64,000 nucleotides of DNA from Nevskiales bacterium (GTDB lineage Bacteria; Pseudomonadota; Gammaproteobacteria; Nevskiales; Nevskiaceae): contig JAQVDP010000016.1 in assembly GCA_028698335.1 (NCBI GenBank), positions 1-64,000 on the forward strand, read 5' to 3'. A program made the translations under genes and the position numbers. Below, one piece after another: positions 4,594 through 20,807 of this stretch. Numbering within the stretch: position 1 is the first letter of the stretch; each line of letters begins with the position of its first letter. Under the pieces are notes generated by a model, which was not told the origin of the DNA, ran no database searches, and saw only the letters and a program-made list of their open reading frames with translations.

Positions 4594-6618
4594 TTACGGC
4601 GCCGAGGGGTTGCCGCCGTTCGCCGCGGGTCGGTACCCCACCATCTGCAGACGTGGCGGTGGGTGGGAAGGGCGATACGGTCTGAGTTTGCGCTGGACCG
4701 GTGGCGGCAGCAGAGGCGACCGGTCGTAATACCGTGCCTGGGTGTAGTGGGGCAGCGAAGTCGGTCCCACGCCCTCTGGGCTGTCCTGGGCATACGTGCG
4801 GATCTCGAACCAGACGACCCCATCGCCGTCCGACCGCATCGGATGGATCTCGCGGCGGTCGTAGATCACGCAGTCGGCGTCGGTCTCCAGGTTGCAGTCG
4901 TACTGGTCGGTGGCGTAGATCCAGGTTCGGATCGCGACCAGGGTGGTGGGCGATTCCAGCGTCCAGTGGATCTGGTCCTCGGGTCGGTTCCCGGTGCGCT
5001 GGAGGTAGCGGACGCCGTCGGGCCGTTCGTAATACGTGTCGTCCGAGTAGTAGCCGCCGTGATCGGCGGCGAAGTTCAGCGTGAAGCCCTGGACGGGGTC
5101 CTGCGGGTTGGTTTCGTCGCCGTATCCGAACTGGAAATAGGTTCCGGGCACGTCCTGTTCGGCGAACGTCCAGTCGCCGCTCTCGAAGAACAGGCCGAAG
5201 TCCGCGTACTGTTGCTGGCCCTGGCGGATCTCTGCCAGCCACAGCGTGGCCTCGTCGGTGACCTGTGTCCTGAGCTTGCGGTAGGCGGCCTGGGCGCCAT
5301 TGGCGAAGGTGATCTGCAACCGGCCGGCCGCGAAGGTCCAGGCGAAGGCGTCGTTGAACAGCAGCCCGGTGCCGGTGCCGTTTGCGTAAAAGCTCAGCAG
5401 ATTGGGCGCGACATGCAGCGACCTGTGATTGCTCGCATCGGTGTAGACCGGAACCGATACGGTCCGGTCGGCGAATGCGACCGATGCCGCCGGTTCGAAG
5501 TCGTCGTCGGACAGGCGCGTGTAGACGACCATGTCGGCGCTGTAACGCACCGGCGAGCTTGGGCACTGCGAGGTTTCGCGGATGTCGCGGAAGACCACGA
5601 CATGGCGCGGTCCCAGCGCGGCAATGCGGTAGCGGATGTACTCCCCGGTCACCGTCAGATACAGGGACGCGCCGTAGGATTCGCAGTCGACATACTCGCT
5701 GAATTCGAACGCATCCGGGTCCGCCGGTTCGCTGACCAGATAGCCCGTCGCATCCAGGGACCAGCTCGTCGCGGAATGGAAGTGGTTGTCGTAGACCGAT
5801 CCGGTGCCGCCGCTCGCGAAGCTCAGCCCCAGCGGGGTGCTGAGCTGCGTGCTGACCTCGTAGGCAAGTTGCGGCACGTTCGCGACCAGCAGCTGCGACG
5901 GCACGTCGGCCGGGGTGAACGTCCCGAATGCCGCCTGTTGCTGAACGACCGTCAGGCGGGCCGCGCTCCAGTCGTCCGCATGATTGCGCTTGAGGTCCTG
6001 GACATAGGCCTTGCGGCTGTCGGCATCGCCGGCGAACGCGAAGGTGTCCGCGGTGTTCTGCGGAAGAGCGTAGGCCGGATTGTGGATGATCAGATCGAGC
6101 GCCGTCGCCACGTCGATGACGGCGTCGAAGTCGAGGCTGTAGCGTTTGCGGTCGAGCGTTTCGCCGGTGAGGGTGGACAGCGCGTCGCCGGCATCGATGA
6201 TCGCGGCTTCGGCGGTGCTGATCGGGGTCGGCACCAGGCGCATGTTCCCGGTCACGTCGAGGATGCCGTCGGTGCCGGCCTGCGCCAGCAGCTCGGTCGC
6301 CGAACCGAGATAGCTCGCAAGCCTGACCGAAGGCGCGCCATCGGCGGTCGCGAAGATGCTGACGATCCGGCTGCGGTCGGCGGGGATGCCGGCCAGGTCG
6401 ACCGAGAAGCGTCCGTCGCCGTCGGCCCGGGCTTCGGTGCGATAGTCGCCGATGCCGACGACCACCGTGGCATCGGCAAACGCCGGGTCGGCGATCGCGC
6501 CTTTGAGCACCAGTTCGGCGCCGGGGCCATCGATACCGGAGGTGCCGCCGCCGCAGGCCGACAGCAGCAGAACGGATGTGATCAGCGCGCCGCTGCGCAC
6601 CAGGTTCGAAAGCCGCAT
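4594..6618 (-). CDS. Large predicted lipoprotein of unknown function
   Basis: The 674-residue protein begins with a lipoprotein signal peptide (LLLSAC, lipidated Cys22) followed by a Gly/Ser linker. A region at about residues 35-120 (LVLKGAI ... DGRFSVDLAGI) reads like a beta-sandwich domain of the carboxypeptidase-regulatory-like type. The rest is Tyr/Phe- and Asp-rich and looks mainly beta. Its C-terminal 40 residues are proline- and arginine-rich. A GGGAGGGA box precedes the start. I recognise no catalytic motif and no family. It lies between convergent and same-strand neighbours without an obvious operon partner. Confidence 0.75.
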   Translation of the reverse strand: MRLSNLVRSGALITSVLLLSACGGGTSGIDGPGAELVLKGAIADPAFADATVVVGIGDYRTEARADGDGRFSVDLAGIPADRSRIVSIFATADGAPSVRLASYLGSATELLAQAGTDGILDVTGNMRLVPTPISTAEAAIIDAGDALSTLTGETLDRKRYSLDFDAVIDVATALDLIIHNPAYALPQNTADTFAFAGDADSRKAYVQDLKRNHADDWSAARLTVVQQQAAFGTFTPADVPSQLLVANVPQLAYEVSTQLSTPLGLSFASGGTGSVYDNHFHSATSWSLDATGYLVSEPADPDAFEFSEYVDCESYGASLYLTVTGEYIRYRIAALGPRHVVVFRDIRETSQCPSSPVRYSADMVVYTRLSDDDFEPAASVAFADRTVSVPVYTDASNHRSLHVAPNLLSFYANGTGTGLLFNDAFAWTFAAGRLQITFANGAQAAYRKLRTQVTDEATLWLAEIRQGQQQYADFGLFFESGDWTFAEQDVPGTYFQFGYGDETNPQDPVQGFTLNFAADHGGYYSDDTYYERPDGVRYLQRTGNRPEDQIHWTLESPTTLVAIRTWIYATDQYDCNLETDADCVIYDRREIHPMRSDGDGVVWFEIRTYAQDSPEGVGPTSLPHYTQARYYDRSPLLPPPVQRKLRPYRPSHPPPRLQMVGYRPAANGGNPSAP

Positions 6619-8764: not shown

Positions 8765-10090
8765 ATGAAAATCCAGACCCTGCAGGATCGACCGGGGCTG
8801 CAGCGCCGCCGTGGCTGGCATCCGGGATGGCTGCTGGCATTTCTGTGCCTGTCCGCCCAGGCTGCCCCCGGCGATCCGCTCACTGCGCCAATCGCGGTTT
8901 CCGACGGGACTGCGGCGCCCTACCTGTATTCGGCGGTGGCCCGTGCCGGCGACGGCACTGCCGTGGTGGTGTACGACAGCGTGCTGGGTGTGCTGGCTCG
9001 CCGGTTCGACGCGGGCGGGGCTCCGCTAGGGGGTGACGTGCTCGTCAACCAGACGTCGGGCGCCCGCCTGCCCGACGTGGCCGCGAATGCCGCCGGTGAT
9101 TTCATCGTGTCTTGGTCGCATCTGAGCGGCGACGATGCGCCGGCGATCCTGGCCCGGCGCTTCCACGCCGACGGCGTTGCCGCGGGGGGCGAGTTCGTCG
9201 TTGCGCCACCGCTGGAGACACCGCTGGGCGAGCAGTCCTGGGCGGTGTCGGCTGTTGCGGCCGACAACGACGGCGATTTCGCCGTGGTCTGGAACCAGGG
9301 TCGCTATCTCGCCTACGGCAGCCCATTCGTCTGCGAGTCCGGGATTGGGCTGTGCATCGATCTCGGCGCCTATACGGTGCAGTTACAGCGTTACGACGCC
9401 GCCGGCGCCGCGGTGGGCAGCGCGCGTGTGCTCATGCGCTCGGCCGATGCCGAGGTGCAGGCGCTGGGCGTCCCGCTGCTGGCTGGCAGTGAACCGGACA
9501 ACGTCGACATCGCGATGGCGCCGAATGGGGCGTTCGTCGTGGTGTGGAACCGGCTCGGTTACGCGCTTGCGCCGCTCTCCGGAACCTATGCACAGACCTT
9601 CGACGCCGAGGGCCATGCCGGTCTGAGGCGAGTCGTCAGCCTGCAGCAGGGCAACCAGTCGTTTCCGGCGGTGGCTGTCGATGCCGGTGGCAGTTTCGTC
9701 GTCGCGTACCGCCGCGAGTCGCGCCGGCTCAACGACTATTCGAACGGTGTCTACGCACGCCTGTTTCCGCGGGCCGGCATCGGTGGGGGCGAGTTCAGGA
9801 TCGACGACGGGACCGAGAGTGATGTGATGCAGCCGGCGGTGGCGATGGACGCGGCGGGCGATTTCGTTGTGGCGTGGATGTCGCTGCAGCCGCTGCAGCA
9901 GCGCCAGATCAGGGCGCAGCGCTACGCCACCGGCGGCCATGCGCTCGGGGGCAACTTCCGCGTGAATGTTCCCGTGCCCCTGGTCAGCGCCCAACGGGCG
10001 GCGGTGGCGATGGATGCGGGCGGTGACTTCGTCGTCACCTGGGCGGAAGACTCCGCGGTGATCGAGGCGCGTTTCTACGACGGCCCCTGA
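8765..10090 (+). CDS. Secreted protein with seven ~55-residue repeats, probable beta-propeller
   Basis: The 441-residue product has a Sec signal peptide ending AQA-AP near residue 34. The mature part consists of seven units. Each has a GDFVVxW-type strand (for example GDFIVSWSH, GDFAVVWNQ, GAFVVVWNR, GDFVVAWMS, GDFVVTWAE), then an ARRFDAxG-type strand (ARRFDAGG, ARRFHADG, LQRYDAAG, AQTFDAEG, ARLFPRAG, AQRYATGG, EARFYDGP). Seven copies of both strands suggest a seven-bladed propeller. No active site is visible. A GAGGAG box precedes the ATG. A terminator-like hairpin follows. Confidence 0.8.
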   Translation: MKIQTLQDRPGLQRRRGWHPGWLLAFLCLSAQAAPGDPLTAPIAVSDGTAAPYLYSAVARAGDGTAVVVYDSVLGVLARRFDAGGAPLGGDVLVNQTSGARLPDVAANAAGDFIVSWSHLSGDDAPAILARRFHADGVAAGGEFVVAPPLETPLGEQSWAVSAVAADNDGDFAVVWNQGRYLAYGSPFVCESGIGLCIDLGAYTVQLQRYDAAGAAVGSARVLMRSADAEVQALGVPLLAGSEPDNVDIAMAPNGAFVVVWNRLGYALAPLSGTYAQTFDAEGHAGLRRVVSLQQGNQSFPAVAVDAGGSFVVAYRRESRRLNDYSNGVYARLFPRAGIGGGEFRIDDGTESDVMQPAVAMDAAGDFVVAWMSLQPLQQRQIRAQRYATGGHALGGNFRVNVPVPLVSAQRAAVAMDAGGDFVVTWAEDSAVIEARFYDGP

Positions 10091-10162: not shown

Positions 10163-10451
10163 GCGCTTTCCCGTTCTGCGTCCTGGGTTCCGCTCAAGCC
10201 TCAGAACCGGCGGGGAAAAATGCCGATCCATAGAGAAATTTGGGCTCGGCATCTTATGTGTCAATAGTATTACAAACTTCATCGAACTGAAGTCGAAGCG
10301 AAAAATCCCGCCACTAGCGTTGCGTCCCGGAATTCGAGCGGACGCAGCGCCGGTCGTGGACGGCACCGAACAGGGCTTCGGTGACCGGTCCCGATGATCG
10401 CTGCGCCCGCGCTCCACAGGGCAGTGATTCATCGATCATCGGGGATTAATT
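10163..10451 (+). other. AT-richer leader/promoter region of the TonB-dependent receptor
   Basis: This gene-free stretch is clearly less GC-rich than its surroundings. It holds the first copy of the recurring ATCCATAGAGAAA motif, and directly after it a TTGGGC ... AATAGT pair with 17-base spacing that could be the promoter. The remaining 200 bases to the GTG start would be a long 5' leader. I found no recognisable riboswitch (no cobalamin-box sequence). Confidence 0.5.
10226..10238 (+). promoter_or_regulatory. Recurring motif ATCCATAGAGAAA, copy 1
   Basis: This exact 13-base sequence also occurs at 14989 and 15769. All three copies are on the same strand, in front of units of the organophosphorus island. 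Here it abuts a -35-like TTGGGC, the position expected for an activator such as the LysR protein encoded at 14072. Confidence 0.6.
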
Positions 10452-12623
10452 GTGAGATCTACGCAGAAGAGCCGCCGCTACCGCGGCATGGTGGGTGCGC
10501 TGGCGATCGCCGGCGCTGTCGTCGCCGACCCGGCGCTGGCGCAGGACGCCGACGCACAGGCCGCGACGCGCGAGGCGCCGGCCAAGGACAAGGTCGAGCT
10601 GGTCGAGGTCGTCGGCCGTCAGACCGAAGGTGAGCTGGCGGTCGACCTGGGCCAGTACGGCAACAAGGTTCAGATCATCGACTCGGCGCAGATCGAGGCC
10701 GGCGGCTTCACCAACATCGCCGAGGCGGTGCAGGGCCTGGTCCGCGGCGCCAACATCGGCTATTCGCCGGACGAGGGCGAATACACGCTGCGCCTCGACG
10801 GCGGCGGCGACCGCGACACCCTGGTTTTGCTCGACGGCATTCCGCTGTTCGACCGCGGTCCGGCGCTGGAGACGATCTGGGGCGCGACCATCGTCGACGT
10901 GCACATGATCGAGCGGATCGAGGTCTACCGCGGCGGCCAGAGCCTGTACTTCGGCAGCAACGGCGGCATCGGCGTGATCAACCTGATCACCAAGCAGCCG
11001 GACGGCAGCGAGAAGGGCGACTTCGGCGTCAGCTACGGCGACTTCAACACCCGCGAGCTGTGGGGCAACGTCTCGTTCCCGATCGGCGCCAGCGGCCATC
11101 ACAGCCTGATGCTGTACGGCAGCTCCAAGTCCACCGACAGCCCGCGCATCTTCAATCCGGCGGACTTTGTTGACAACATCGCCCGCGCCGGCGCGATCCA
11201 CGAGTATCCGCTCAACCGCAACAACCTGGGCCTGAAGTACCTGTGGGCGATCGACGACACGTCTGAGCTGCGGGTCAACGCGCAGTACGCGCAGATCGAG
11301 TTCCGCGACGCGTTCCCGCATACCACGGTGTACGCGCCGAACACCACGCAGTACCCGATGGTCGACGCCAGCTTCCGCAAGAGCTGGTCCGACAGCTGGG
11401 AGACCGAGGCCGAGGTCTATTACACCAACCCGCAGCTGTTCAACACCGAGCTGTATCCGGTGGTCTGTGAGATCGAGGCCGGTTGCGTCGATGCCAACGA
11501 TCCGGGCAACACCGTGCCCTACGGCCAGTGGACCGGTGCGGTCGAGCCGTATCGCAACCAGGGCTTCGAGGACATCAAGGGTGGTTACGAGGAGCTGACC
11601 GCGTCGGTGCGCAACCGGATCTACTTCGGCAACGCGCTGCAGATGGTCCTCGGCATGCAGTCGGTGAACTACCGCAACGATTCGGATCCGGTGTTCCCGA
11701 TCGACAACGACGTCGCCTCGATCAACGGCGTCTACGTCGACCTGCGCCCGACGCTGCCGTTCAGTCCGTCGACCTCGATCTCGCTGGCCGGCCGCATCGA
11801 CTTCTCGGATTCCTTCGATTCGAAGACGATCTACAAGTTCGGCGTGCGCCAGCCGTTCGCCGGCAGCTTCTACGCCCGCGTCAACGGCGGTACCTCGTAC
11901 AGCCTGCCGCGGACCAACGAGCTGTACGCGAACACCGAGACCTTCGTCGGCAATCCGAATCTGGAGCCCGAGGAGACCGAGACCTACAACTACGGCATCG
12001 GCTTCGACGGCGACGTCGGCGGCCGTCGTCTGCAGGCGGAGATCGGCGGCTTCCGGACCGACATCACCGATCGCATCCGCAACACCACCGCGCTGGAGCC
12101 GAACACCCCGTACAACGATCCGGCGGTCACGGAGATCCGTGGCATCACCGCCGACATCGAGTACGCGATCAACGACAACTGGTCGGGCTCGCTGAGCTAC
12201 ACCCAGGTCGACGCCACGCCGGAGAACAGCGATCTGCAGATCGACCAGCAGGCCGAGTACTTCCTGATCGGCAATCTGACCTATCGCTCCTCGGACGACC
12301 GCTATCATTTCAACCTGCTGCCGCGCCTGCAGGGACCGGAGTGGGCGTCGGGTGGTGGTCTGCGCTTCAACTACGGCGACTACTTCCTGCTCAACGCGAC
12401 GATGGGCTACTGGGCCGGCGAGGAACGCCAGCACCGCTTCCAGCTCCGCGTCGTCAACGTGCTCGACGAGGACTACGCGGAACGCGGCGGCATCGGCGAC
12501 CAGCGTTACGGCGAGGCCTACATCACCGGCCAGATCACGCGCGACGATCCGGAGTACCGCTTCCCGTACGTGTTCGAGGGCAAGCCGCGTTCGTTCTTCG
12601 TGCAGTACTCGTACCGCTACTGA
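10452..12623 (+). CDS. TonB-dependent outer-membrane receptor
   Basis: The 723-residue protein has a signal peptide (to about residue 31, ALAQ), a TonB-box-like KVELVEVVG, a plug domain (about 45-165, including LRLDGGGDRDTLVLLDGIP and SLYFGSNGGIGVINLIT) and a 22-strand-type barrel ending in YSYRY with a terminal aromatic residue. It should import a specific ligand across the outer membrane using TonB energy. The gene starts at GTG with GGGGA upstream; an internal ATG at 10488 would truncate the signal peptide. It is followed 34 bases later by the PHP hydrolase gene. The shared promoter motif links it to the PhnDCE-type transporter, so a phosphorus compound is the inferred cargo. Confidence 0.92.
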   Translation: MRSTQKSRRYRGMVGALAIAGAVVADPALAQDADAQAATREAPAKDKVELVEVVGRQTEGELAVDLGQYGNKVQIIDSAQIEAGGFTNIAEAVQGLVRGANIGYSPDEGEYTLRLDGGGDRDTLVLLDGIPLFDRGPALETIWGATIVDVHMIERIEVYRGGQSLYFGSNGGIGVINLITKQPDGSEKGDFGVSYGDFNTRELWGNVSFPIGASGHHSLMLYGSSKSTDSPRIFNPADFVDNIARAGAIHEYPLNRNNLGLKYLWAIDDTSELRVNAQYAQIEFRDAFPHTTVYAPNTTQYPMVDASFRKSWSDSWETEAEVYYTNPQLFNTELYPVVCEIEAGCVDANDPGNTVPYGQWTGAVEPYRNQGFEDIKGGYEELTASVRNRIYFGNALQMVLGMQSVNYRNDSDPVFPIDNDVASINGVYVDLRPTLPFSPSTSISLAGRIDFSDSFDSKTIYKFGVRQPFAGSFYARVNGGTSYSLPRTNELYANTETFVGNPNLEPEETETYNYGIGFDGDVGGRRLQAEIGGFRTDITDRIRNTTALEPNTPYNDPAVTEIRGITADIEYAINDNWSGSLSYTQVDATPENSDLQIDQQAEYFLIGNLTYRSSDDRYHFNLLPRLQGPEWASGGGLRFNYGDYFLLNATMGYWAGEERQHRFQLRVVNVLDEDYAERGGIGDQRYGEAYITGQITRDDPEYRFPYVFEGKPRSFFVQYSYRY

Positions 12624-12657
12624 TCTTGATCCGAGAACGGACGGGAAAGGGACGCAG

Positions 12658-14058
12658 ATGACGTCTTCATGGAAAACCCGCCTGGGCGGCCTGCTGCTGA
12701 TCTTCAGCAGCATGGCCGCCTCCGGGCACGGCGGACACGCCGGACCCGGCGAGGGCACGCCCCCGAAACAGCCGTATTTCAAGGGTATCCGCGGCGACTA
12801 CCGCGCCGACGAAGCCCGCTGGTGGAAGGGCAATACCCACACGCACACCTGGTGGAGCGACGGCGACAGCCCGCCGGAGACCGCCGCGGCCTGGTACCGC
12901 GAGCATGGCTACCAGTTCCTGGTGCTCAGCGACCACAACCGCATGCAGGCCGGTGCGATCGCCCGCGGCAATCTCGCGCTGCACTACACGCAGTGGTACC
13001 CGATCGAGGACGAGGCGCGGGCCGCGGCACTGGCGATCTACCGCGAGCACTTCGGTCCGGACTGGGTCGAGGAACGGGTGGTCGACGGCGTGACCCAGGT
13101 CCGGCTCAAGGCCCTGGACGAGTTCCGCGGCCTGTTCGAGGCGCCGGGCGAGTTCACCTTCGTGCCCGGCGAGGAGATCACCGACCGTTTCGAGTCGCAT
13201 CCGATCCACGTCAACGCGGTCAACATCCAGGATCCGATCGCGCCGCGCGGCGGTGAGACGCCGACGGCGATCATCCAGAACACCCTCAATGCCGTGCTCG
13301 ACCACGGGCTGAGCAGCGGCCGCGAGGTACTGGCACATCTGAACCATCCGAACTTCCGCTATGCGCTGACCGTCGAGGACCTGGTGCCGCTGCGCTACCG
13401 GACCGGCGAAGGCTTCTTCGAGCTGTACAACGGCCATCACGGGGTCGAGAACTACGGCGACGGCGAGCATCCCGGGATCGAGCGGATGTGGGACATCCTG
13501 CTGGCCAAGCGCATCGCCGAGGGCGACGGCACCATTCCCTACGGCATCGCCAACGACGACGCCCACCGCTTCACGACCTGGCGCGTCGGCAAGGATTCCA
13601 ACCCCGGCCGCGGCTGGGTCATGGTGCGGGCGCGCCGCCTGACGCCGGACTCGATCGTCGCGGCGATGAAGCGGGGCGACTTCTACGCCAGTACCGGCGT
13701 CACCCTCGGCCGCCTCGAGCGCGGCGGCGACACCCTGGCGCTGGCGGTCGATCCGGAGCCCGGCGTCGATTACACGATCGAGTTCATCGGGACGCGGCGC
13801 GGCGCGGAGCTGGGTGCGCATCCGCGCGAGCCGGCGCCGGACGGACGCGCGTCGCAGCGCTATGACGACGCCATCGGCGTCGTGCTCAAGACCGTGCGCG
13901 GCACCGAGGCGCGCTACGTCGCGCGCGGCGACGAGCTGTACGTGCGGGCGCGGGTGACCTCGACGCAGCCGCATCCGAACCCGTTCCGGGCCGGCGACGT
14001 CACGATGGCGTGGACCCAGCCGCTGGTGGTCGCCGCGCCGCAGGGGCGGACGCCCTGA
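12658..14058 (+). CDS. Secreted PHP-domain phosphoesterase-like hydrolase
   Basis: The 466-residue product has a signal peptide (to about residue 22) and a full PHP metal-binding set: NTHTHTWWSDGD near residue 60, LSDHNR near 95, an EEITDRF plus HPIHVN pair near 175, LAHLNHPNF near 220, and NDDAHRF near 300. PHP enzymes use two or three metals to cleave phosphoesters, including histidinol phosphate and nucleic-acid or organophosphate substrates. Export plus linkage to a TonB receptor suggests periplasmic processing of an imported phosphoester. The reaction itself is not evident. It is convergent with lysR, with only 13 bases between stops. Confidence 0.85.
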   Translation: MTSSWKTRLGGLLLIFSSMAASGHGGHAGPGEGTPPKQPYFKGIRGDYRADEARWWKGNTHTHTWWSDGDSPPETAAAWYREHGYQFLVLSDHNRMQAGAIARGNLALHYTQWYPIEDEARAAALAIYREHFGPDWVEERVVDGVTQVRLKALDEFRGLFEAPGEFTFVPGEEITDRFESHPIHVNAVNIQDPIAPRGGETPTAIIQNTLNAVLDHGLSSGREVLAHLNHPNFRYALTVEDLVPLRYRTGEGFFELYNGHHGVENYGDGEHPGIERMWDILLAKRIAEGDGTIPYGIANDDAHRFTTWRVGKDSNPGRGWVMVRARRLTPDSIVAAMKRGDFYASTGVTLGRLERGGDTLALAVDPEPGVDYTIEFIGTRRGAELGAHPREPAPDGRASQRYDDAIGVVLKTVRGTEARYVARGDELYVRARVTSTQPHPNPFRAGDVTMAWTQPLVVAAPQGRTP

Positions 14059-14071
14059 CGGCGGCCGGGAT

Positions 14072-14983
14072 TCAGGCGATGACCGGATCGGATTCGGCGG
14101 CTGCCTCCGCCAGGCCGGCGCGGACGGCGTCGAGCTGGTCGATGAAGGCGGCGACGAGGCGCGACTTGAGGCGCTCGCGCAGGCAGATCACATGCGCGTA
14201 GCTGTGCACGTTCAGATCGCTGATCGGCAGCTGCCGCAGGCGCGGGTCGGGAACGTAGGCGATGTCGGAGACCACACCGAGGCCGAGTCCGCAGGCGACC
14301 GCCTCGCGGATCGACTCGCGGCTGCCGATCTCCATCGTCGTGCGCACGCGCACGCCGGCTTCGGCGAGGGCCTGCTCGAACACCTTGCGGGTGGTCGAAC
14401 CGTTCTCGCGCACGACCATCTCGACGCCGTCGAGGTCGGCCAGGGTCAGCGCTGTGCGCTGCGCCAGCGGATGGTTCCGGGGTGCGAACACGACCAGGCG
14501 CTGGCGGCGGAACGGAATGCTGTGGACGCGCTCGTCGCGGACATCGTGCACGAGCACGCCGACGTCGGCCTGATAGTTCAGGACGCGCTCGACGATCTGA
14601 GAGGAATCGCCGACCGACAGCGTCACGAAGATGCGGGGATAGGCCTTGCGGAAGGTCGCGAGCATGCGCATCACGTTGTACGGGCCGACCGCGCTGATGC
14701 GCAGGTGCCCGCGCTGCACGCCCTGGGCGTCGGTCATCAGCTCGCGCGCCTCCTCCTCCAGCTCGAACAGGCGATTGGTCAGCACCAGGATCGATTCGCC
14801 GAATTCGGTCAGCACCAGGCGGCGGCCGACCTGCGCGAACAGCTGCACGCCATAGCGCGTCTCCAGCGCGCCGATGTGCGCCGAAACCGTCGGTTGGCTC
14901 ACGCCCATCGCCTGCGCCGCGGCGGTCGTGCCGCCGCAGCGGGCGGTGTAGTGGAAGGCGCGCAGCCCGGTCAGAAAGCGCAT
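14072..14983 (-). CDS. LysR-family regulator, aminoethylphosphonate-associated type
   Basis: The 303-residue protein has an N-terminal LysR HTH (residues 3-62: LRAFHYTARCGGTTAAAQAMGVSQPTVS) and a periplasmic-binding-like effector domain. Its N-terminus FLTGLRAFHYTARCGG and its position beside PhnD-PhnC-PhnE-type genes fit the LysR regulators linked to phosphonate catabolism. The start at 14983 is chosen because it begins just before the HTH. The recurring 13-base motif lies 6-18 bases upstream of this ATG, inside the divergent region shared with the HAD gene, where LysR proteins normally bind. Confidence 0.9.
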   Translation of the reverse strand: MRFLTGLRAFHYTARCGGTTAAAQAMGVSQPTVSAHIGALETRYGVQLFAQVGRRLVLTEFGESILVLTNRLFELEEEARELMTDAQGVQRGHLRISAVGPYNVMRMLATFRKAYPRIFVTLSVGDSSQIVERVLNYQADVGVLVHDVRDERVHSIPFRRQRLVVFAPRNHPLAQRTALTLADLDGVEMVVRENGSTTRKVFEQALAEAGVRVRTTMEIGSRESIREAVACGLGLGVVSDIAYVPDPRLRQLPISDLNVHSYAHVICLRERLKSRLVAAFIDQLDAVRAGLAEAAAESDPVIA

Positions 14984-14988
14984 CGGGA

Positions 14989-15001
14989 ATCCATAGAGAA
15001 A
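14989..15001 (+). promoter_or_regulatory. Recurring motif ATCCATAGAGAAA, copy 2
   Basis: This copy lies in the 91-base divergent region between lysR and the HAD gene, 74 bases before the HAD start. With one flanking base on each side it matches copy 3 over 15 bases (AATCCATAGAGAAAA). It overlaps the translation-initiation region of lysR, so binding could also repress lysR. Confidence 0.65.
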
Positions 15002-15074
15002 ACCAACAGGCCGGGCAGTTGAGCAGAGCAATCTTGCATGCCGATGAAGCGGCACAGAACAACAAAGGCACCAC

Positions 15075-15758
15075 GTGAAGGTTCAATCCGAATTGCGGTA
15101 TCGCTGCATCGTCTTCGATCTCGACGGCACGCTGCTGGATACCCGCCCCGCGATGCTCGCGGCGATCAACGCCCAGCTCGCGAAGCTGTCGCGGCCGCCG
15201 GTCGCCGCCGCGCAGCTCGAACACGCGACCCATCAGGGCCTGCCGGCGATGTGGCTGCGCGCGCTCGACGAGACCGGCCGCCTGCCGCCGCCGGAGCAGA
15301 TCGCCGCGACCCAGGCCGAACTGAGGCAGCGCTACCTGCGCGCCGCGGCGCAGGGGGTGATGCCGTTCCCGGGGGCGCTGGCATTGCTCGACGCGCTGCG
15401 CGAGCGCGGCGTGTGGATGGCGATCTGCAGCAACCAGAACCAGGACAGCGTCGTGCAACTGCTCGATCTGTTCGACCTGCGCCGCTATTTCCGCGAGGTC
15501 GTCGGCGGCGACACCTTCGTCGAGCGCAAACCCGATCCGATGGCGCTGCGCTGGCTGATGCTGTGCGCGCGCAGCGCGCCGGAAACGACGCTGATGGTCG
15601 GCGACAGCGCGCTGGACGGCGAGTGCGCAGAACGCGCCGGCGCCGAGGTGGTGCTGATGGGGCATGGCTACGGCGGGCCGAAGCTGGCATCCCGGTTCGC
15701 CATGCTGCCGGGCTTTGCGGAGCTGCATCGCCAACTGTTCGGCGCGCCGCCGTGCTGA
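15075..15758 (+). CDS. HAD-superfamily phosphatase, Gph-like
   Basis: The 227-residue protein has the four HAD motifs: the nucleophile in VFDLDGTLLDT, a SNQ threonine/serine-type motif II (ICSNQNQD), the lysine in ERKPDP, and motif IV in MVGDSALDGE. The alpha-helical cap resembles phosphoglycolate phosphatase. The DxDGT motif marks it as a phosphomonoesterase, not a phosphonatase (those have DWAGT). It starts at GTG with AAAGG 6 bases upstream. It stands between lysR and phnD and probably releases phosphate from the imported compound. The true substrate is unknown. Confidence 0.85.
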   Translation: MKVQSELRYRCIVFDLDGTLLDTRPAMLAAINAQLAKLSRPPVAAAQLEHATHQGLPAMWLRALDETGRLPPPEQIAATQAELRQRYLRAAAQGVMPFPGALALLDALRERGVWMAICSNQNQDSVVQLLDLFDLRRYFREVVGGDTFVERKPDPMALRWLMLCARSAPETTLMVGDSALDGECAERAGAEVVLMGHGYGGPKLASRFAMLPGFAELHRQLFGAPPC

Positions 15759-15768
15759 GCGTCCGCCA

Positions 15769-15781
15769 ATCCATAGAGAAA
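15769..15781 (+). promoter_or_regulatory. Recurring motif ATCCATAGAGAAA, copy 3
   Basis: This copy lies 10 bases after the stop of the HAD gene and 99 bases before the phnD start. It is followed by AAACGC-G-GCGTTT, a small palindrome, and a TAGGCT -10-like box at about 15841. It indicates that phnDCE can be transcribed from its own regulated promoter. Confidence 0.62.
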
Positions 15782-15879
15782 ATCGATGCAGAGATCGGAA
15801 AAACGCGGCGTTTCTTCACTGCCATGCAACACCCCGCCGCTAGGCTGACCGCCCCGATTCGCAGGACAGGAGTCTGAAC

Positions 15880-16845
15880 ATGCCGCTCGCCCCCAACCAT
15901 GCCGCCGCGTGGATCCGTCGCGGCTGCCGCGCCGTCGCCGCGATGCTGATGGCGCTGACGGCAACGGCCGCGACGGCCGGCACGGGCGGCGGTGCCGGTA
16001 CCGCGGCGCATCCGCTGCGGGTCATGCTGATTCCGGCCGACGGCGGCACCGCCAGCGGCACCAAGGCCGACTTCGCCCCGCTGTTCAACGCGGTCAGCCG
16101 CAGCACCGGTCTGCACTTCGACCTGCGCGTCGGCCAGAGCTACTCGGCGGTGATCGAGGCGATGAAGAGCCGGCTGATCGACATCGCCTGGTTCGGCCCG
16201 GTGTCCTACGTGCAGGCGCGCGCGGCCGGTGCCGCCGAGCTGCTCGCGGTGTCGGTGGTCCACGGCGAGTCGGTGTACTACGCCGGAATCTTCGTGCCCA
16301 GCGACGCGCCGATCCGGACGGTTGCCGATCTCAAGGGCAGGCGCGTCGCCTTCGGCGACATCAACTCCAGCTCCAGTTTTGCCTACCAGGTGGCGATGAT
16401 GCTCGACGCCGGCCTCGATCCGTCGCGCGATCTGGCGTCGATCCGCATGACCGGCAGCCACGCCGCGAGCCTGTCGGCGCTGGCCGAGGGCATGGTCGAC
16501 GCGGCCTGTCTGAGCTTCGAGTCCTACATGCGCGCGGTCAATCGCGGGGCGATCGATCCGCAGCGCTTCCGCGTGCTCGCGCGCAGCGCGCCGATTCCGA
16601 ATCCGCCGATGGCGCTGCATCCGGCGCTCGCGCCGGACCTCAAGGCCACGCTGCGCACGGCCTTCGCCAGGGTCAACGAGGATCCCACGATCACGCCGGA
16701 CATGATTCGCGGTTACGGCGGCAAGCGCGTGGACCGCTACGACGCCGCGTTCCCGGAATCGGCGTTCGACCAGCCGGCACAGACCCTGGCGCGGATCGGC
16801 GACGCGCTGCGCGCGGCGATCCTGCGCAAGGCCGCCGCGCCGTGA
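15880..16845 (+). CDS. phnD: Phosphonate-type ABC transporter substrate-binding protein
   Basis: The 321-residue PhnD-family protein has a signal peptide (to about residue 33) and the family landmarks ADFAPLFNAVSR, YSAVIEAMKSRLIDIAWFGPVSY and LKGRRVAFGDINSSSSF. PhnD proteins bind phosphonates, phosphite or phosphate esters in the periplasm. An AGGAG box lies 8 bases before the ATG. The stop overlaps the phnC start (GTGA), so the transporter genes form one operon. Ligand specificity cannot be told from sequence. Confidence 0.9.
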   Translation: MPLAPNHAAAWIRRGCRAVAAMLMALTATAATAGTGGGAGTAAHPLRVMLIPADGGTASGTKADFAPLFNAVSRSTGLHFDLRVGQSYSAVIEAMKSRLIDIAWFGPVSYVQARAAGAAELLAVSVVHGESVYYAGIFVPSDAPIRTVADLKGRRVAFGDINSSSSFAYQVAMMLDAGLDPSRDLASIRMTGSHAASLSALAEGMVDAACLSFESYMRAVNRGAIDPQRFRVLARSAPIPNPPMALHPALAPDLKATLRTAFARVNEDPTITPDMIRGYGGKRVDRYDAAFPESAFDQPAQTLARIGDALRAAILRKAAAP

Positions 16846-17657
16846 GCGATGCCGAGGCGATGCTGCGCCTGCACGGCGTCGGCGTGCGTTACGCCGACGG
16901 CACCGTCGCGCTGGACGCGGTCGAACTGAGCGTGCCACGCGGCCAGTTCTGCGTGCTGCTGGGATCGTCCGGCGCCGGCAAGTCGACCCTGCTGCGCGCG
17001 GTCAACGGTCTGATCGTCCCGAGCTCGGGCGTGGTCGAACTCGACGGCCAGGCGCTGCGGCCCGGCGACCTGCGCTCGCGCGGGCGCAAGATCGCGACGA
17101 TCCACCAGGGCATCGATCTGGTGCCGCGGCTCAGCGTGCTCGACAACGTGCTGTGCGGCGACATCGCCGCGCTGCCGCTGTGGCGCGCATTGCTCGGCCG
17201 CTTCGGCCGCGCGCGCCAGCGTGCCGCGTGCATGCTGCTGGCCGAGGTCGGACTCGACGAGTCGCAGCTCTACCGCCGCGCCAGCGAGCTGTCCGGCGGC
17301 CAGCAGCAGCGCGTCGGCATCGCCCGCGCATTCATCAGCCGCCCGCCGCTGGTGCTGGCCGACGAGCCGGTTGCGAGCCTCGATCCGCGGATCAGCCGCG
17401 ACATCCTCGCGCTGCTGCGCCGCTCCGCGCGGATGCACGGCGCGACGGTGCTGTGCAGCCTGCATCAGATCGAACTGGCACGCGAGTTCGCCGACCGCAT
17501 CGTCGGCATGCGCGGCGGGCGCATCGTGCTGGACTGCGCGCCGCAGCAGCTCGACGATGCGCGCCTCGCGGCGCTGTATCAGCGCGGCACCAGCGACGCC
17601 GCCGTCGCCGCGGCGCCGGCTGCAGCGGCGATCGAGATCGAAGGACTGCGGGCATGA
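16842..17657 (+). CDS. phnC: Phosphonate-type ABC transporter ATP-binding protein
   Basis: The 271-residue ATPase has Walker [10 protein letters not shown] (about residue 44), the Q-loop IHQGIDLV, the signature [15 protein letters not shown], Walker [15 protein letters not shown] and the H-loop CSLHQ. It powers import by PhnD/PhnE at the inner membrane. The start is GTG at 16842, overlapping the phnD stop by 4 bases; the next in-frame ATG (MLRLHG) is six codons later and also possible. A 15-residue alanine-rich tail extends the usual length. Confidence 0.9.
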
Positions 17658-18676
17658 GCGCCAGCGACAGCGTCGTCGCCGCGCGCCCGCCGCAGCAGTG
17701 GGCGCTGCGGCCGTGGCTGCGCACCCGCACCCTGCTGCTGCTCCTGCTGCTGGCGGCCCTGGCGCTGGTGTCGGCGCGGCGCACCGAGATCGACCGCATG
17801 TTCGCGCTCAGCGCCGAGGCGGTCGCCGTCGGCGTCGGTGGCGAGGGGCATTCGCAGGTGCTCGACGGACTGGCGCGCATCGTCGGCCACCTGTGGCCGT
17901 TGCAGCTGTCGGAAACGCGGCCGGTCTCGAGGATCGAGAACTTCGACCGCGCGCAGCTGCCCTGGGGCAGCCATCTGGAGGTCGAGCGGCGGCGCGAGCA
18001 ACACCTGGATCCGGACACGCTGCAGATGACCGAGACCACGGTCGAGCGCGAGGTGCTGGTCGAGCCCTACGGCTATCTGCTGCACGTGCTGTGGCTGATG
18101 GTCGAGACCCTGGAGATCGCGGCCTGGGGCACCCTCATCGCGATCGTGCTGGCCGCTCCGCTGGCGGTGCTCGGCGCGCGCGGCTACAGCCCGAATCGGG
18201 CGGTCTACGCGCTGACGCGCGGCATCAGCAGTCTGCTGCGCGCGATCCCCGATCTGGTCAGCGCGCTGTTCCTGGTGCTGGCCTTCGGCTTCGGCCCGAT
18301 CGCCGGCGTGCTCGCGCTGGGGCTGCACACCGCCGGCTTTCTCGGCAAGTTCTTCGCCGAGGATGTCGAGAACGCGCCGCGCGGGCCGCAGGATGCGCTG
18401 CGCGCCGCCGGTGCCGGCCGGCTCGAACTGCTGCGCTATGCGGTGTTGCCGCAGGTCCTGCCGTCGTACATCGGCTACATCCAGTACATCCTCGAACGCA
18501 ACATCCGCACCGCGACGGTCATCGGCATCGTCGGCGCCGGCGGCATCGGCCAGGAGCTCAAGGGCCGCTTCGAGATGTTCGATTTCCAGCACGTCGGCAC
18601 GATCCTGGTCGTGATCTTCCTGACCGTGGTCGCGCTCGAACTCATCACCGGACGGATGCGCGCACGCCTGATCTGA
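17654..18676 (+). CDS. phnE: Phosphonate-type ABC transporter permease with an enlarged periplasmic loop
   Basis: The 340-residue protein has a first helix at about residues 25-43, then the permease core from about residue 140 (ETLEIAAWGTLIAIVLAAPLAVLGARGY) with the EAA-like loop APRGPQDALRAAGAGRLELLRYAVLPQVLPSYIGY and the IGIVGAGGIGQELKGRFEMFDF segment of PhnE. Between them is a charged stretch of about 95 residues, roughly 60 more than in typical PhnE. The ATG overlaps the phnC stop (ATGA). It completes the importer. Confidence 0.9.
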   Translation: MSASDSVVAARPPQQWALRPWLRTRTLLLLLLLAALALVSARRTEIDRMFALSAEAVAVGVGGEGHSQVLDGLARIVGHLWPLQLSETRPVSRIENFDRAQLPWGSHLEVERRREQHLDPDTLQMTETTVEREVLVEPYGYLLHVLWLMVETLEIAAWGTLIAIVLAAPLAVLGARGYSPNRAVYALTRGISSLLRAIPDLVSALFLVLAFGFGPIAGVLALGLHTAGFLGKFFAEDVENAPRGPQDALRAAGAGRLELLRYAVLPQVLPSYIGYIQYILERNIRTATVIGIVGAGGIGQELKGRFEMFDFQHVGTILVVIFLTVVALELITGRMRARLI

Positions 18677-18704
18677 CGCGGCCGCCCCCCATCGGAGTCC
18701 TGAC

Positions 18705-20807
18705 ATGAACACGACCAACCGGCGCGACTTCCTGCGCCTGGCCGCCGGCGGCACCGCGCTGGCGCTGCTGCCGCCGAGCATCCGCCGCGCCCTCGCCGTA
18801 CCCGCCGCGGTCGAGTCGCGCACGATCGAGGACGTCAAGCATGTGGTGATCCTGATGCAGGAGAACCGCTCGTTCGATCACTACTTCGGCACGCTGCGCG
18901 GCGTGCGCGGCTTCGGCGACCGGTTCCCGGTGCCGCTGGAGAGCGGCCACCCGGTGTGGATGCAGTCGGACGGCACGCGTGAGATCCCGCCCTACCATCT
19001 CGACAGCGAAACCATGAACGCGCTGCTGGTGCCGGACACGCCGCATTCGTATTCGGACGCGCAGGCGGCCTGGAACCAGGGCAAGTTCGGTTTCTGGCCC
19101 AAGTACAAGACGCCGTACTCGATGGGGCATTACCGCCGCGACGACATTCCGTTCCAGTTCGCGCTGGCCGAGGCGTTCACGCTCTGCGACGCCTATCACT
19201 GCTCGATCACCTCCGGCACCGATCCCAACCGCATCGTGTTCTGGAGCGGCAGCAACTTCAGCCCCGAGCTGCGGGCGCGCGGCGTCAACAGCACCGACGC
19301 GGACTCCGAGCCGGACAATCTGCGCTGCTGGGTGACCGGGCAGATGCCGGAACCGGGCTATACCTACAAGGCCAATGCGCTGACCTGGCCGACGATTCCG
19401 GACGTGCTGCAGGATGCCGGGATCGGCTGGCGCATCTATCAGGACCCCAACGACAACTGGACCGGCGCGATGCACGGCGGTCTGGCGTTCCGGAGCTTCC
19501 GCGGCGCCGAGCCGGGTTCGGCGCTGTACGAGCAGGGCCTGTCGCACTGGTCGCTGGAGGACCTGCGGCGCCACGTCGAGGCCGGCACCTTGCCGCAGGT
19601 CAGCTGGATCCTGCCGAACCGCATGCAGTCCGAGCATCCGGGGGCGCCGTCGAGTCCGCGCCAGGGCGGTCACTTCACCGCGCAGGTGCTCGACGCGCTG
19701 ACCGCCAATCCGGACGTGTGGAGCCGCACCGCGCTGTTCCTGACCTTCGACGAGAACGACGGTTTCTTCGATCACCTGCCGCCGCCGGCGGTGCCGTCCT
19801 ACAACGCAGACGGCAGCCTCGCCGGCGGGGCGACGCTGGATCTGGCCGGACACTATTTCGACGACCGCGAGCGCAGGCATCTGCGCGACGACGACACGGT
19901 CAGCGGCCGGGTGCGCCCGTGGGGGCTCGGCCCGCGCGTGCCGATGTACGTGATCTCGCCGTGGAGCCGCGGCGGCTGGGTCGATTCGGAAGTGGCCGAC
20001 CACACCTCGGTCGGACGCTTCCTGGAAGCCCGTTTCGGCGTGCGCATCCCGGCGATCAGCCCGTGGCACCGCGCGGTCTGCGGGGACCTGACCCGGGCCT
20101 TCGATTTCGAGCATCCCAACGAGCGCGCGTTCCCGCGCCTGCCGGACATGCGCGACTTCGCCGCGGTCGAGCAGGCCCAGCGCAAGCTGCCGGACCCGGC
20201 GCCGCCGAAGGCCGCGCAGCCGCTGTTCCAGGAGCCGGGCAGCCGGCCCTCGCGCGCGCTCGGCTATGTGCTGGACGTCGACGCCCACCGCGACGGCGAG
20301 CGGGTCGAGCTGAGCTTCGTCAACGCCGGCACCGTCGGCGCGGTGTTCCACGTCTACGACCGTCGCCGGCCGCAGGCGATCCCGCGACGCTACACGGTCG
20401 AGGCCGGCAAGCGCATGGCGGATCACTGGCCGGCGCGCGACGGTGCCGAGCTGTGGGTCCACGGTCCCAACGGCTTCGTGCGCCGCCTGCGTCTTGATGC
20501 CGCGGCGCCGGCGCTGGAGGTCCGTGCCAGGGCCGGCGCGCGCGGCGGGATCAGCCTGGAGGCGCACAACCGCGGGGCGCATCGGCTGCGGATGCAGGTC
20601 CGCGACGCCGCATACGGCGGCGGGACGTGGACGCTGGAGGTGGCGGCGCAGTCACAGGCGTCGCGGCACTGGGCGCTGACCGACAGCGCGCAGTGGTACG
20701 ACCTGATCGTCAGCGTCGACGGCTTCGAGCAGCGCTTCGCCGGTCGCGTCGAAACCGGCGAACCCGGTTTCAGCGATCCGGCGATGGGGGCCGCACCGGC
20801 GGGTTGA
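18705..20807 (+). CDS. Phosphocholine-specific phospholipase C / acid phosphatase family, Tat-exported
   Basis: The 700-residue protein has a Tat signal (NRRDFLRLAAGGTALAL at residues 4-20), then the PLC/AcpA catalytic domain with MQENRSFDHYFGTLRGVRGF near residue 46, YHCSITSGTDPNR near 165, and FLTFDENDGFFDH near 345. Two C-terminal beta domains (about 500-690) match the non-haemolytic PlcN architecture. Such enzymes cleave phosphatidylcholine-type lipids and release phosphoryl headgroups. It follows phnE by 28 bases with GGAG before the ATG, so it probably belongs to the same regulon and feeds phosphorus compounds to the transporter. Confidence 0.92.
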   Translation: MNTTNRRDFLRLAAGGTALALLPPSIRRALAVPAAVESRTIEDVKHVVILMQENRSFDHYFGTLRGVRGFGDRFPVPLESGHPVWMQSDGTREIPPYHLDSETMNALLVPDTPHSYSDAQAAWNQGKFGFWPKYKTPYSMGHYRRDDIPFQFALAEAFTLCDAYHCSITSGTDPNRIVFWSGSNFSPELRARGVNSTDADSEPDNLRCWVTGQMPEPGYTYKANALTWPTIPDVLQDAGIGWRIYQDPNDNWTGAMHGGLAFRSFRGAEPGSALYEQGLSHWSLEDLRRHVEAGTLPQVSWILPNRMQSEHPGAPSSPRQGGHFTAQVLDALTANPDVWSRTALFLTFDENDGFFDHLPPPAVPSYNADGSLAGGATLDLAGHYFDDRERRHLRDDDTVSGRVRPWGLGPRVPMYVISPWSRGGWVDSEVADHTSVGRFLEARFGVRIPAISPWHRAVCGDLTRAFDFEHPNERAFPRLPDMRDFAAVEQAQRKLPDPAPPKAAQPLFQEPGSRPSRALGYVLDVDAHRDGERVELSFVNAGTVGAVFHVYDRRRPQAIPRRYTVEAGKRMADHWPARDGAELWVHGPNGFVRRLRLDAAAPALEVRARAGARGGISLEAHNRGAHRLRMQVRDAAYGGGTWTLEVAAQSQASRHWALTDSAQWYDLIVSVDGFEQRFAGRVETGEPGFSDPAMGAAPAG

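Follow-up and report, generated by a model that had tools for sequence, protein, structure and literature searches.

We examined a 13-base sequence, ATCCATAGAGAAA, that recurs three times around a LysR-type regulator gene in a putative organophosphorus locus of a Nevskiales bacterium (GCA_028698335.1); the window analyzed is the whole 64,000-nucleotide stretch at positions 1 to 64,000 of contig JAQVDP010000016.1. Our favored interpretation, to which we would give a probability of a little over 80%, is that each of the three 13-mers marks a copy of the operator, a 19-bp dyad, for the LysR protein encoded at 14072-14983, and that together with PhoB-type promoters they would place the locus under joint control by phosphate starvation and by substrate. 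Such an arrangement is well supported, and as a kind of gene switch it is ordinary. The initial annotation of this DNA had proposed a binding site for the adjacent LysR protein that would unite the receptor, transporter, and phosphatase genes in a single regulon, and the conservation and co-occurrence described here support this predicted regulon. The candidate Pho-box-like promoter downstream of the sites is an element that the annotation had missed.

The three exact copies lie on the plus strand at 10226-10238, 14989-15001, and 15769-15781, a span of 5.6 kb, and mapping the genes on either side verified that all are intergenic, as annotated. Copy 1 falls between the end of an open reading frame (ORF) at 10090 and the start of the TonB-receptor gene at 10452. 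Copy 2 is bounded by the lysR ATG (14981-14983) and the HAD phosphatase gene, which starts at 15075; that gene stops at 15758, and copy 3 follows it, ahead of the phnD ATG at 15880. A longer lysR frame (14072-15055) would take in copy 2; it was rejected because the proteins of G011, G024, and H. effusa, three relatives described below, match only from the residue encoded at 14983. Copies 2 and 3 are alike over 15 bases, AATCCATAGAGAAAA, as had been pointed out, and the sequences flanking the copies are unlike one another.

The 13-mer is rare. The window holds no further match at up to two mismatches (shuffled sequences averaged 0.19 matches, and none of 100 reached three). A search of the whole genome (4,298,632 bases in 44 contigs), which the annotation had suggested, returned exactly the same three intergenic copies and no scatter through coding regions; the count stayed at three when one mismatch was allowed, and the reversed-pattern control gave zero. 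About 0.006 copies per genome would be expected on both strands from the base composition of the window. Across 100 genomes, this one included, 47 carry a match at one mismatch, at scattered positions, and only the G011 match, at the lysR locus, was used further. The exact 13-mer occurs elsewhere among the relatives as one copy each in G064 and G065.

Orthologous loci from three other genera reveal a 19-bp imperfect dyad, CCATAGA-N5-TCTATGG, built around a T-N11-A core, to which the 13-mer contributes the left half and the spacer. The idea that the 13-mer is itself the binding site thus survives in part: the layout is that of a textbook LysR-type operator, but the 13-mer supplies only a half-site plus spacer, and the dyad is nearly complete at copy 3 alone. 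Ahead of phnD, the dyad reads CCATAGAGAAAATCGATGC in the window, CCATAGAGCAAGTCGATGG in G011, ACATCGAGAAAATCTATGG in G024, and CCATAGAAGATTTTCATGC in H. effusa; at lysR it reads CCATTGATCCGCTCTATGG in G011 and CTATCGACGTGATCTATGG in H. effusa, and at the receptor gene of G011, CCATAGAAGAAATCACTGG. The receptor region of H. effusa aligns with copy 1 (CTATAGAAGGATTGGGGCTCGGCA versus CCATAGAGAAATTTGGGCTCGGCA) and may hold a decayed or half site. Among the three relatives, dyads stand before phnD in all, at the lysR start in two, and clearly before the TonB receptor in two, so that the alignment envisaged in the annotation finds the dyad conserved at corresponding places in three other genera with the same LysR. 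The lysR site begins 5-7 bp from the start codon in the window, G011, and H. effusa. The dyad holds its place across genera, and much of the surrounding spacer differs. The exact pattern CCATAGA-N5-TCKATGS occurs in the whole genome at the phnD site alone.

The regulator and the transporter travel together. We searched 85 genomes of the order, including this one, with thresholds of E<=1e-60 for LysR and E<=1e-30 for PhnD. LysR matches were found in five: the genome itself, G011 (73% identity), G024 (74%), H. effusa AP103 (G041; 68%, in two copies), and G036 (47%). PhnD orthologues (65-71%) were found in the same four genomes apart from G036, and G042 has only a 32% match, so LysR orthologues of at least 68% and PhnD orthologues of at least 65% are confined to the same four of the 85. 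None of 10 other species of the genus that were searched reaches either threshold. In G011 and G024, the genes for the receptor, PHP-type hydrolase, LysR, HAD phosphatase, and PhnDCE are collinear with the window, and the 18 kb fetched of H. effusa carries the receptor, LysR, phnDCE, and phospholipase C genes, with a HAD gene beyond the receptor. The PHP-type hydrolase gene at 12658-14058 was not seen in those 18 kb.

The H. effusa AP103 sequence NZ_AKGD01000001.1 has two lysR-phnDCE-phospholipase C loci (L063/L064 and L073/L074) with identical match scores, 203,532 bp apart, and pattern matches at 4767/208299, 45318/248850, and 194674/398206 share this offset. About 200 kb of the assembly seems to be present twice, perhaps as an artefact (listed contamination 9).

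To score the sites, we used a position weight matrix (PWM) made from ten of them, with the G024 receptor dyad left out and the two H. effusa copies counted once. The T-N11-A bases (positions 4 and 16) are present in copies 2 and 3 and in seven of the ten. In a leave-one-genus-out test, a PWM built without the tested genus was scanned over 11 intergenic regions; the shuffles here, and in the Pho and distant-homologue tests below, preserve base composition only. The top site reached a shuffle p<=0.006 in eight regions: lysR-HAD and phnD in the window, all three in G011, the receptor and phnD in G024, and lysR-phnD in H. effusa, where the lysR site ranked first (17.7) and the phnD site second (13.2). 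The eight significant sites score 11.0-22.0; with the ten-site PWM, none of 36 coding windows (150 bp each) did better than 8.8. Two pattern searches for further sites were set aside. CCATMGA-N5-TCKATGG at two mismatches was uninformative as a regulon search, with 83-154 matches per genome in five genomes and 8-25 for the reversed control. The stricter CCATAGA-N5-TCKATGS at one mismatch found the phnD site and two others in this genome, which is not above the reversed control (three forward, one reverse), and we therefore claim no further member of the regulon.

Downstream of the dyad, the sequences preceding phnD in the four genera also conserve TTCAC-N5-TGCAA/TGTCA, 24-25 bp from the dyad, and the hexamer TAGGCT/TAGCCT. 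Pho boxes are described as 7-nt units, one every 11 bp (PMC4415409), and the pstS-like promoters of the same genomes have this spacing. The phnD promoter differs from such promoters in its single divergent pair, as the receptor promoter does in its weak repeats, and both have the LysR dyad upstream. A plain E. coli Pho consensus was significant in only two of the 11 regions, at p=0.01 for phnD of G024 and at p=0.003 for the receptor of H. effusa, and being mostly non-significant it was replaced by units from the pstS-like promoters. The pstS-like genes of the four genomes are sub-cut-off matches to TIGR00975, which no gene in the four passes. Seven such loci were found; L130-L133 were used, L128 and L129 were dropped as lacking such repeats, and L134, beside L131, was outside the sample. 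The window genome's own pstS-like promoter (L130, contig C12, upstream of the match at 142357) has TTGTCAT-CTGCAAC-GCTTCAT-TTGGCAA every 11 bp and then, after 10 bp, CAGACT. That of G024 has a Pho-like pair, 10 bp, and TAGTGT, and those of G011 and H. effusa have the repeats without a -10-like hexamer at 10 bp.

With a Pho PWM of 14 units from these four promoters, the best pair in each phnD region lies 22-23 bp after the dyad in all four genera (pair alone, p=0.022, 0.015, 0.001, and 0.002). It is 10 bp from TAGGCT/TAGCCT in all four, and when spacing and -10 are included in the test, which covers the eight phnD and receptor regions, p<=0.003 in each. At the receptor promoters, the same test gave p=0.07 in the window and 0.02, 0.007, and 0.003 in the relatives; the pair alone gave p=0.04, 0.18, 0.14, and 0.003, and the best pair of the window is at another offset. 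The putative Pho-like repeats at the receptor promoters are thus suggestive only. All of these p values depend on one another, the promoters being orthologous. The annotation had also placed copy 1 against a -35-like box, in the right place for activation. TTGGGC does adjoin it, one base beyond the 13-mer at 10240-10245, and H. effusa has TTGGGG, but the box is absent in G011 and G024, which rules it out as the relevant -35.

We also looked at distant LysR homologues of 37-47% identity, drawn from 369 genomes of the class and 398 of the phylum, plus G036. LysR matches at E<=1e-60 were present in seven class and 10 phylum genomes, with the window genome and G306 in both counts. At the order level there were eight LysR loci, of which two are those of H. 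effusa; L065, whose match begins at residue 34, was omitted, and L066-L070 lay outside the test. The PWM had been fixed beforehand from the close orthologues, and the comparison was made after the sequences had been read by eye. The best site within 250 bp upstream had a median score of 8.0 at 16 distant loci and 3.5 at 24 control LysR paralogues (Mann-Whitney p=3e-4); the 16 include near kin (L083, L085, and L086 from one genus, L103 and L104 from another), and the controls are 24 of 25 loci, L054 being too short. Four loci exceed the best control (11.4): L098 (18.1), L100 (17.0), L106 (14.7), and L102 (12.2). As in the window, the site in L098, L100, and L102 is within about 5 bp of the start of the LysR match. 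L102 adjoins phnW, phnA, and phosphonoacetaldehyde dehydrogenase genes, and L098 is near phnA and a gene for a PsrA-type dehydrogenase.

The window LysR has TIGR03339, the aminoethylphosphonate-associated LysR model, as its nearest model, and it falls below the cut-off and so is formally not a member. Ten other LysR proteins (L100 partial) score 265-322 bits, all below 341.1, including L098 at 317 and L102, beside phnW, at 321.8, much like the window protein. In G036, the 47% homologue (L075, 5898-12734) lies between a phospholipase C gene and genes for a PsrA-type dehydrogenase and the aminoethylphosphonate transporter PhnS2; L075 is a possible link between phospholipase and aminoethylphosphonate versions of the regulator. 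Tentatively, CNATAGA-N5-TCTATNG may be the ancestral operator of the phosphonate-associated LysR clade in the TIGR03339/AepR neighborhood. It would then have persisted from aminoethylphosphonate operons through to the receptor-transporter-phospholipase C regulon described here, in which the regulator would have been redeployed, jointly with PhoB, for an organophosphorus substrate derived from phospholipids. Because nine of the 16 distant loci have no convincing site, such a clade-wide operator is only a possibility, and one that we put at below even odds.

Several observations weigh against a LysR operator paired with PhoB-type promoters. The right halves of copies 1 and 2 are poor (copies 1, 2, and 3 keep one, three, and five of the nine symmetric pairs), and copy 1 has G for the A of T-N11-A. 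The window's receptor region reached only p=0.09, though copy 1 is its top site; no site is present in the lysR-HAD region of G024 (p=0.30), and the leave-one-out PWM misses the weak receptor site of H. effusa (p=0.68). Orthologous promoters share descent, and so their conservation is not fully independent. Only seven of the 16 distant homologues reach p<=0.05, and only the four named above exceed the best control. For the Pho element, the units were picked by eye after the phnD alignment had been seen, as was the -10 filter (NANNNT), the 10-bp distance to a -10-like hexamer holds in only two of four pstS-like promoters, the plain E. coli consensus is significant in just one of four phnD regions, and the receptor repeats are weak. 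In addition, Achromobacter phosphonatase operons with a LysR gene are reported as having no Pho box found (PMC11203657).

The strongest alternative, which we still consider unlikely, is that a different LysR-type protein, or some other regulator, occupies the sites in place of the adjacent LysR. An extended consensus, CTATA-n9-TATAG, is reported as common to several LysR proteins (PMC5002191), so the site alone does not name its LysR, which counts against our interpretation as well, and the genome has 19 LysR-like matches among 23 candidates scored. The sites nevertheless cluster only around this lysR, with one at its start codon, in the other genera the sites occur at the same loci as the orthologous LysR, and the LysR and PhnD orthologues are limited to the same few genomes. 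It is less probable still that the 13-mer is part of a PhoB operator and the genes plain members of the Pho regulon without LysR control. The genes are phosphorus-related, Pho-like repeats are present in the same promoters, and the HAD promoter of the window also has a Pho-like pair (p=0.04). The dyad, however, is an inverted repeat, whereas the pstS-like promoters have direct repeats of 11 bp; it ends upstream of the phnD Pho-like repeat; it also occurs at the start of lysR, a region without a Pho-like pair in the two relatives tested (p=0.43 and 0.57); and the 13-mer is nowhere else in the genome. Chance recurrence or a small functionless duplication is scarcely credible, for although the word is short and two right halves are degenerate, three copies in so short a span stand against the fraction of one expected per genome, their flanks differ, and the dyad stays in position across genera while the neighboring spacer changes.

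Table 1. Predicted regulatory elements and genes of the locus (window positions)
Feature	Position	Strand	Remarks
LysR operator 1 (predicted), CCATAGAGAAATTTGGGCT	10228..10246	+	upstream of TonB receptor; left half kept, right half degenerate; leave-one-out p=0.09
LysR operator 2 (predicted), CCATAGAGAAAACCAACAG	14991..15009	+	7 bp from lysR start codon, also upstream of HAD; leave-one-out p=0.004
LysR operator 3 (predicted), CCATAGAGAAAATCGATGC	15771..15789	+	near-complete dyad upstream of phnD; leave-one-out p=0.002
Weak putative Pho-box-like 11-bp repeats ACTTCAT/CTGAAGT/GCGAAAA (receptor)	10276..10304	+	10 bp before -10-like hexamer
Putative -10-like hexamer TAGCGT, TonB-receptor promoter	10315..10320	+	
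Putative Pho-box-like direct repeat TCTTCAC-TGCC-ATGCAAC (phnD)	15813..15830	+	PWM from pstS-like promoters of same genomes
Putative -10-like hexamer TAGGCT, phnD promoter	15841..15846	+	10 bp after Pho-like repeat
TonB-dependent outer-membrane receptor	10452..12623	+	Pfam PF07715 Plug 58 bits, over cut-off
PHP-type hydrolase, weakly CehA/McbA-like	12658..14058	+	NF038032 66.3 bits, below cut-off 80; no Pfam match
LysR-type regulator near TIGR03339 phn_lysR	14072..14983	-	307.5 bits, cut-off 341.1
HAD phosphatase, phosphoglycolate-phosphatase-like	15075..15758	+	TIGR01449 142.9 bits, below cut-off 180; Pfam HAD_2 106.5 bits, over cut-off
phnD-like phosphonate/phosphate-ester binding protein	15880..16845	+	TIGR01098 169.9 bits, over cut-off; PhnD equivalog TIGR03431 156.7, below 261.1
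phnC-like ABC ATPase	16845..17657	+	start codon approximate; TIGR02315 251.1 bits, cut-off 266.1
phnE-like permease	17654..18676	+	TIGR01097 251.7 bits, over cut-off
Phosphocholine-specific phospholipase C	18705..20807	+	TIGR03396 853.6 bits, over cut-off

The gaps between phnD, phnC, phnE, and the phospholipase C gene (15880-20807) are short or nil, and the phospholipase C gene is probably the last of a phnDCE operon. Upstream of the receptor lies a 441-aa ORF (8765-10090) in which AMDAAGDFVVAW-like repeats recur; neither Pfam nor NCBIfam gave it a match at E<=0.001. Searches for phnW, phnX, phnA, and phnY found none among nine window proteins scanned, the scope within which phnX, phnA, and phnY were sought, so no aminoethylphosphonate catabolic gene lies beside lysR there. 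Neither phnJ nor a match over cut-off to the PhnW-AepZ model was found in any of five genomes, this one included; sub-cut-off PhnW-type transaminases are also present in all 14 control genomes. Given the absence of phnJ and PhnW-type matches that are only sub-cut-off, the inducer seems likelier to be a phosphate ester (for example, a head group that phospholipase C frees from phospholipids) than a phosphonate.

The best model for the control scheme is the one known genetically from Pseudomonas putida BIRD-1, where joint control by PhoBR and the LysR-type AepR has been established: under phosphorus limitation, full expression of phnWX needs both, with AepR important and not essential (PMC9311074). 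AepR, encoded beside phnWX, resembles the window LysR as a LysR-type protein of an organophosphorus locus, and it combines substrate induction with PhoBR control (PMC9311074). The comparison is by description, and unlike the AepR locus, the window has genes for a TonB receptor, PHP hydrolase, HAD phosphatase, and phospholipase C. Two other LysR regulators encoded beside phosphonate genes, PhnR (phosphonoacetate) and PalR (phosphonoalanine), need their substrate as co-inducer (PMC10574752); they are described as not closely related to AepR (PMC9311074), and we likewise set them beside the window LysR by description only. We found no mapped operator for an AepR-type regulator in the phosphonate literature searched, with subscription papers outside its scope. 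A lys box of the T-N11-A type is reported for PltR at -74 to -53 (PMC3382589). The window dyad, CCATA-N9-TATGG, is similarly imperfect and occurs both ahead of promoters and at the gene for the regulator. It differs from lys box systems in that two of its three copies are essentially half-sites and that the phnD site adjoins a Pho-like promoter.

If these assignments are right, the predicted LysR would bind over the start of its own gene, where it would probably act in autorepression and perhaps control the HAD gene, and also upstream of two PhoB-type promoters, those of the TonB receptor and of the phnDCE-phospholipase C operon. Measured from predicted start sites near 15853 for phnD and 10327 for the receptor, the site center would be at about -73 and about -90, respectively. 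PhoB on the Pho-like repeat next to the -10 would confer phosphate-starvation control, and LysR at the upstream site, together with a small organophosphorus inducer, would confer control by substrate. Full expression of the uptake and hydrolysis genes would then need both inputs. The analysis provides a concrete predicted operator for a LysR close to the phosphonate-associated AepR group, in what would be a compact regulon linking uptake across both the outer and the inner membrane with phospholipase C. The layout of its promoters makes combined control by phosphate starvation and substrate testable one element at a time.

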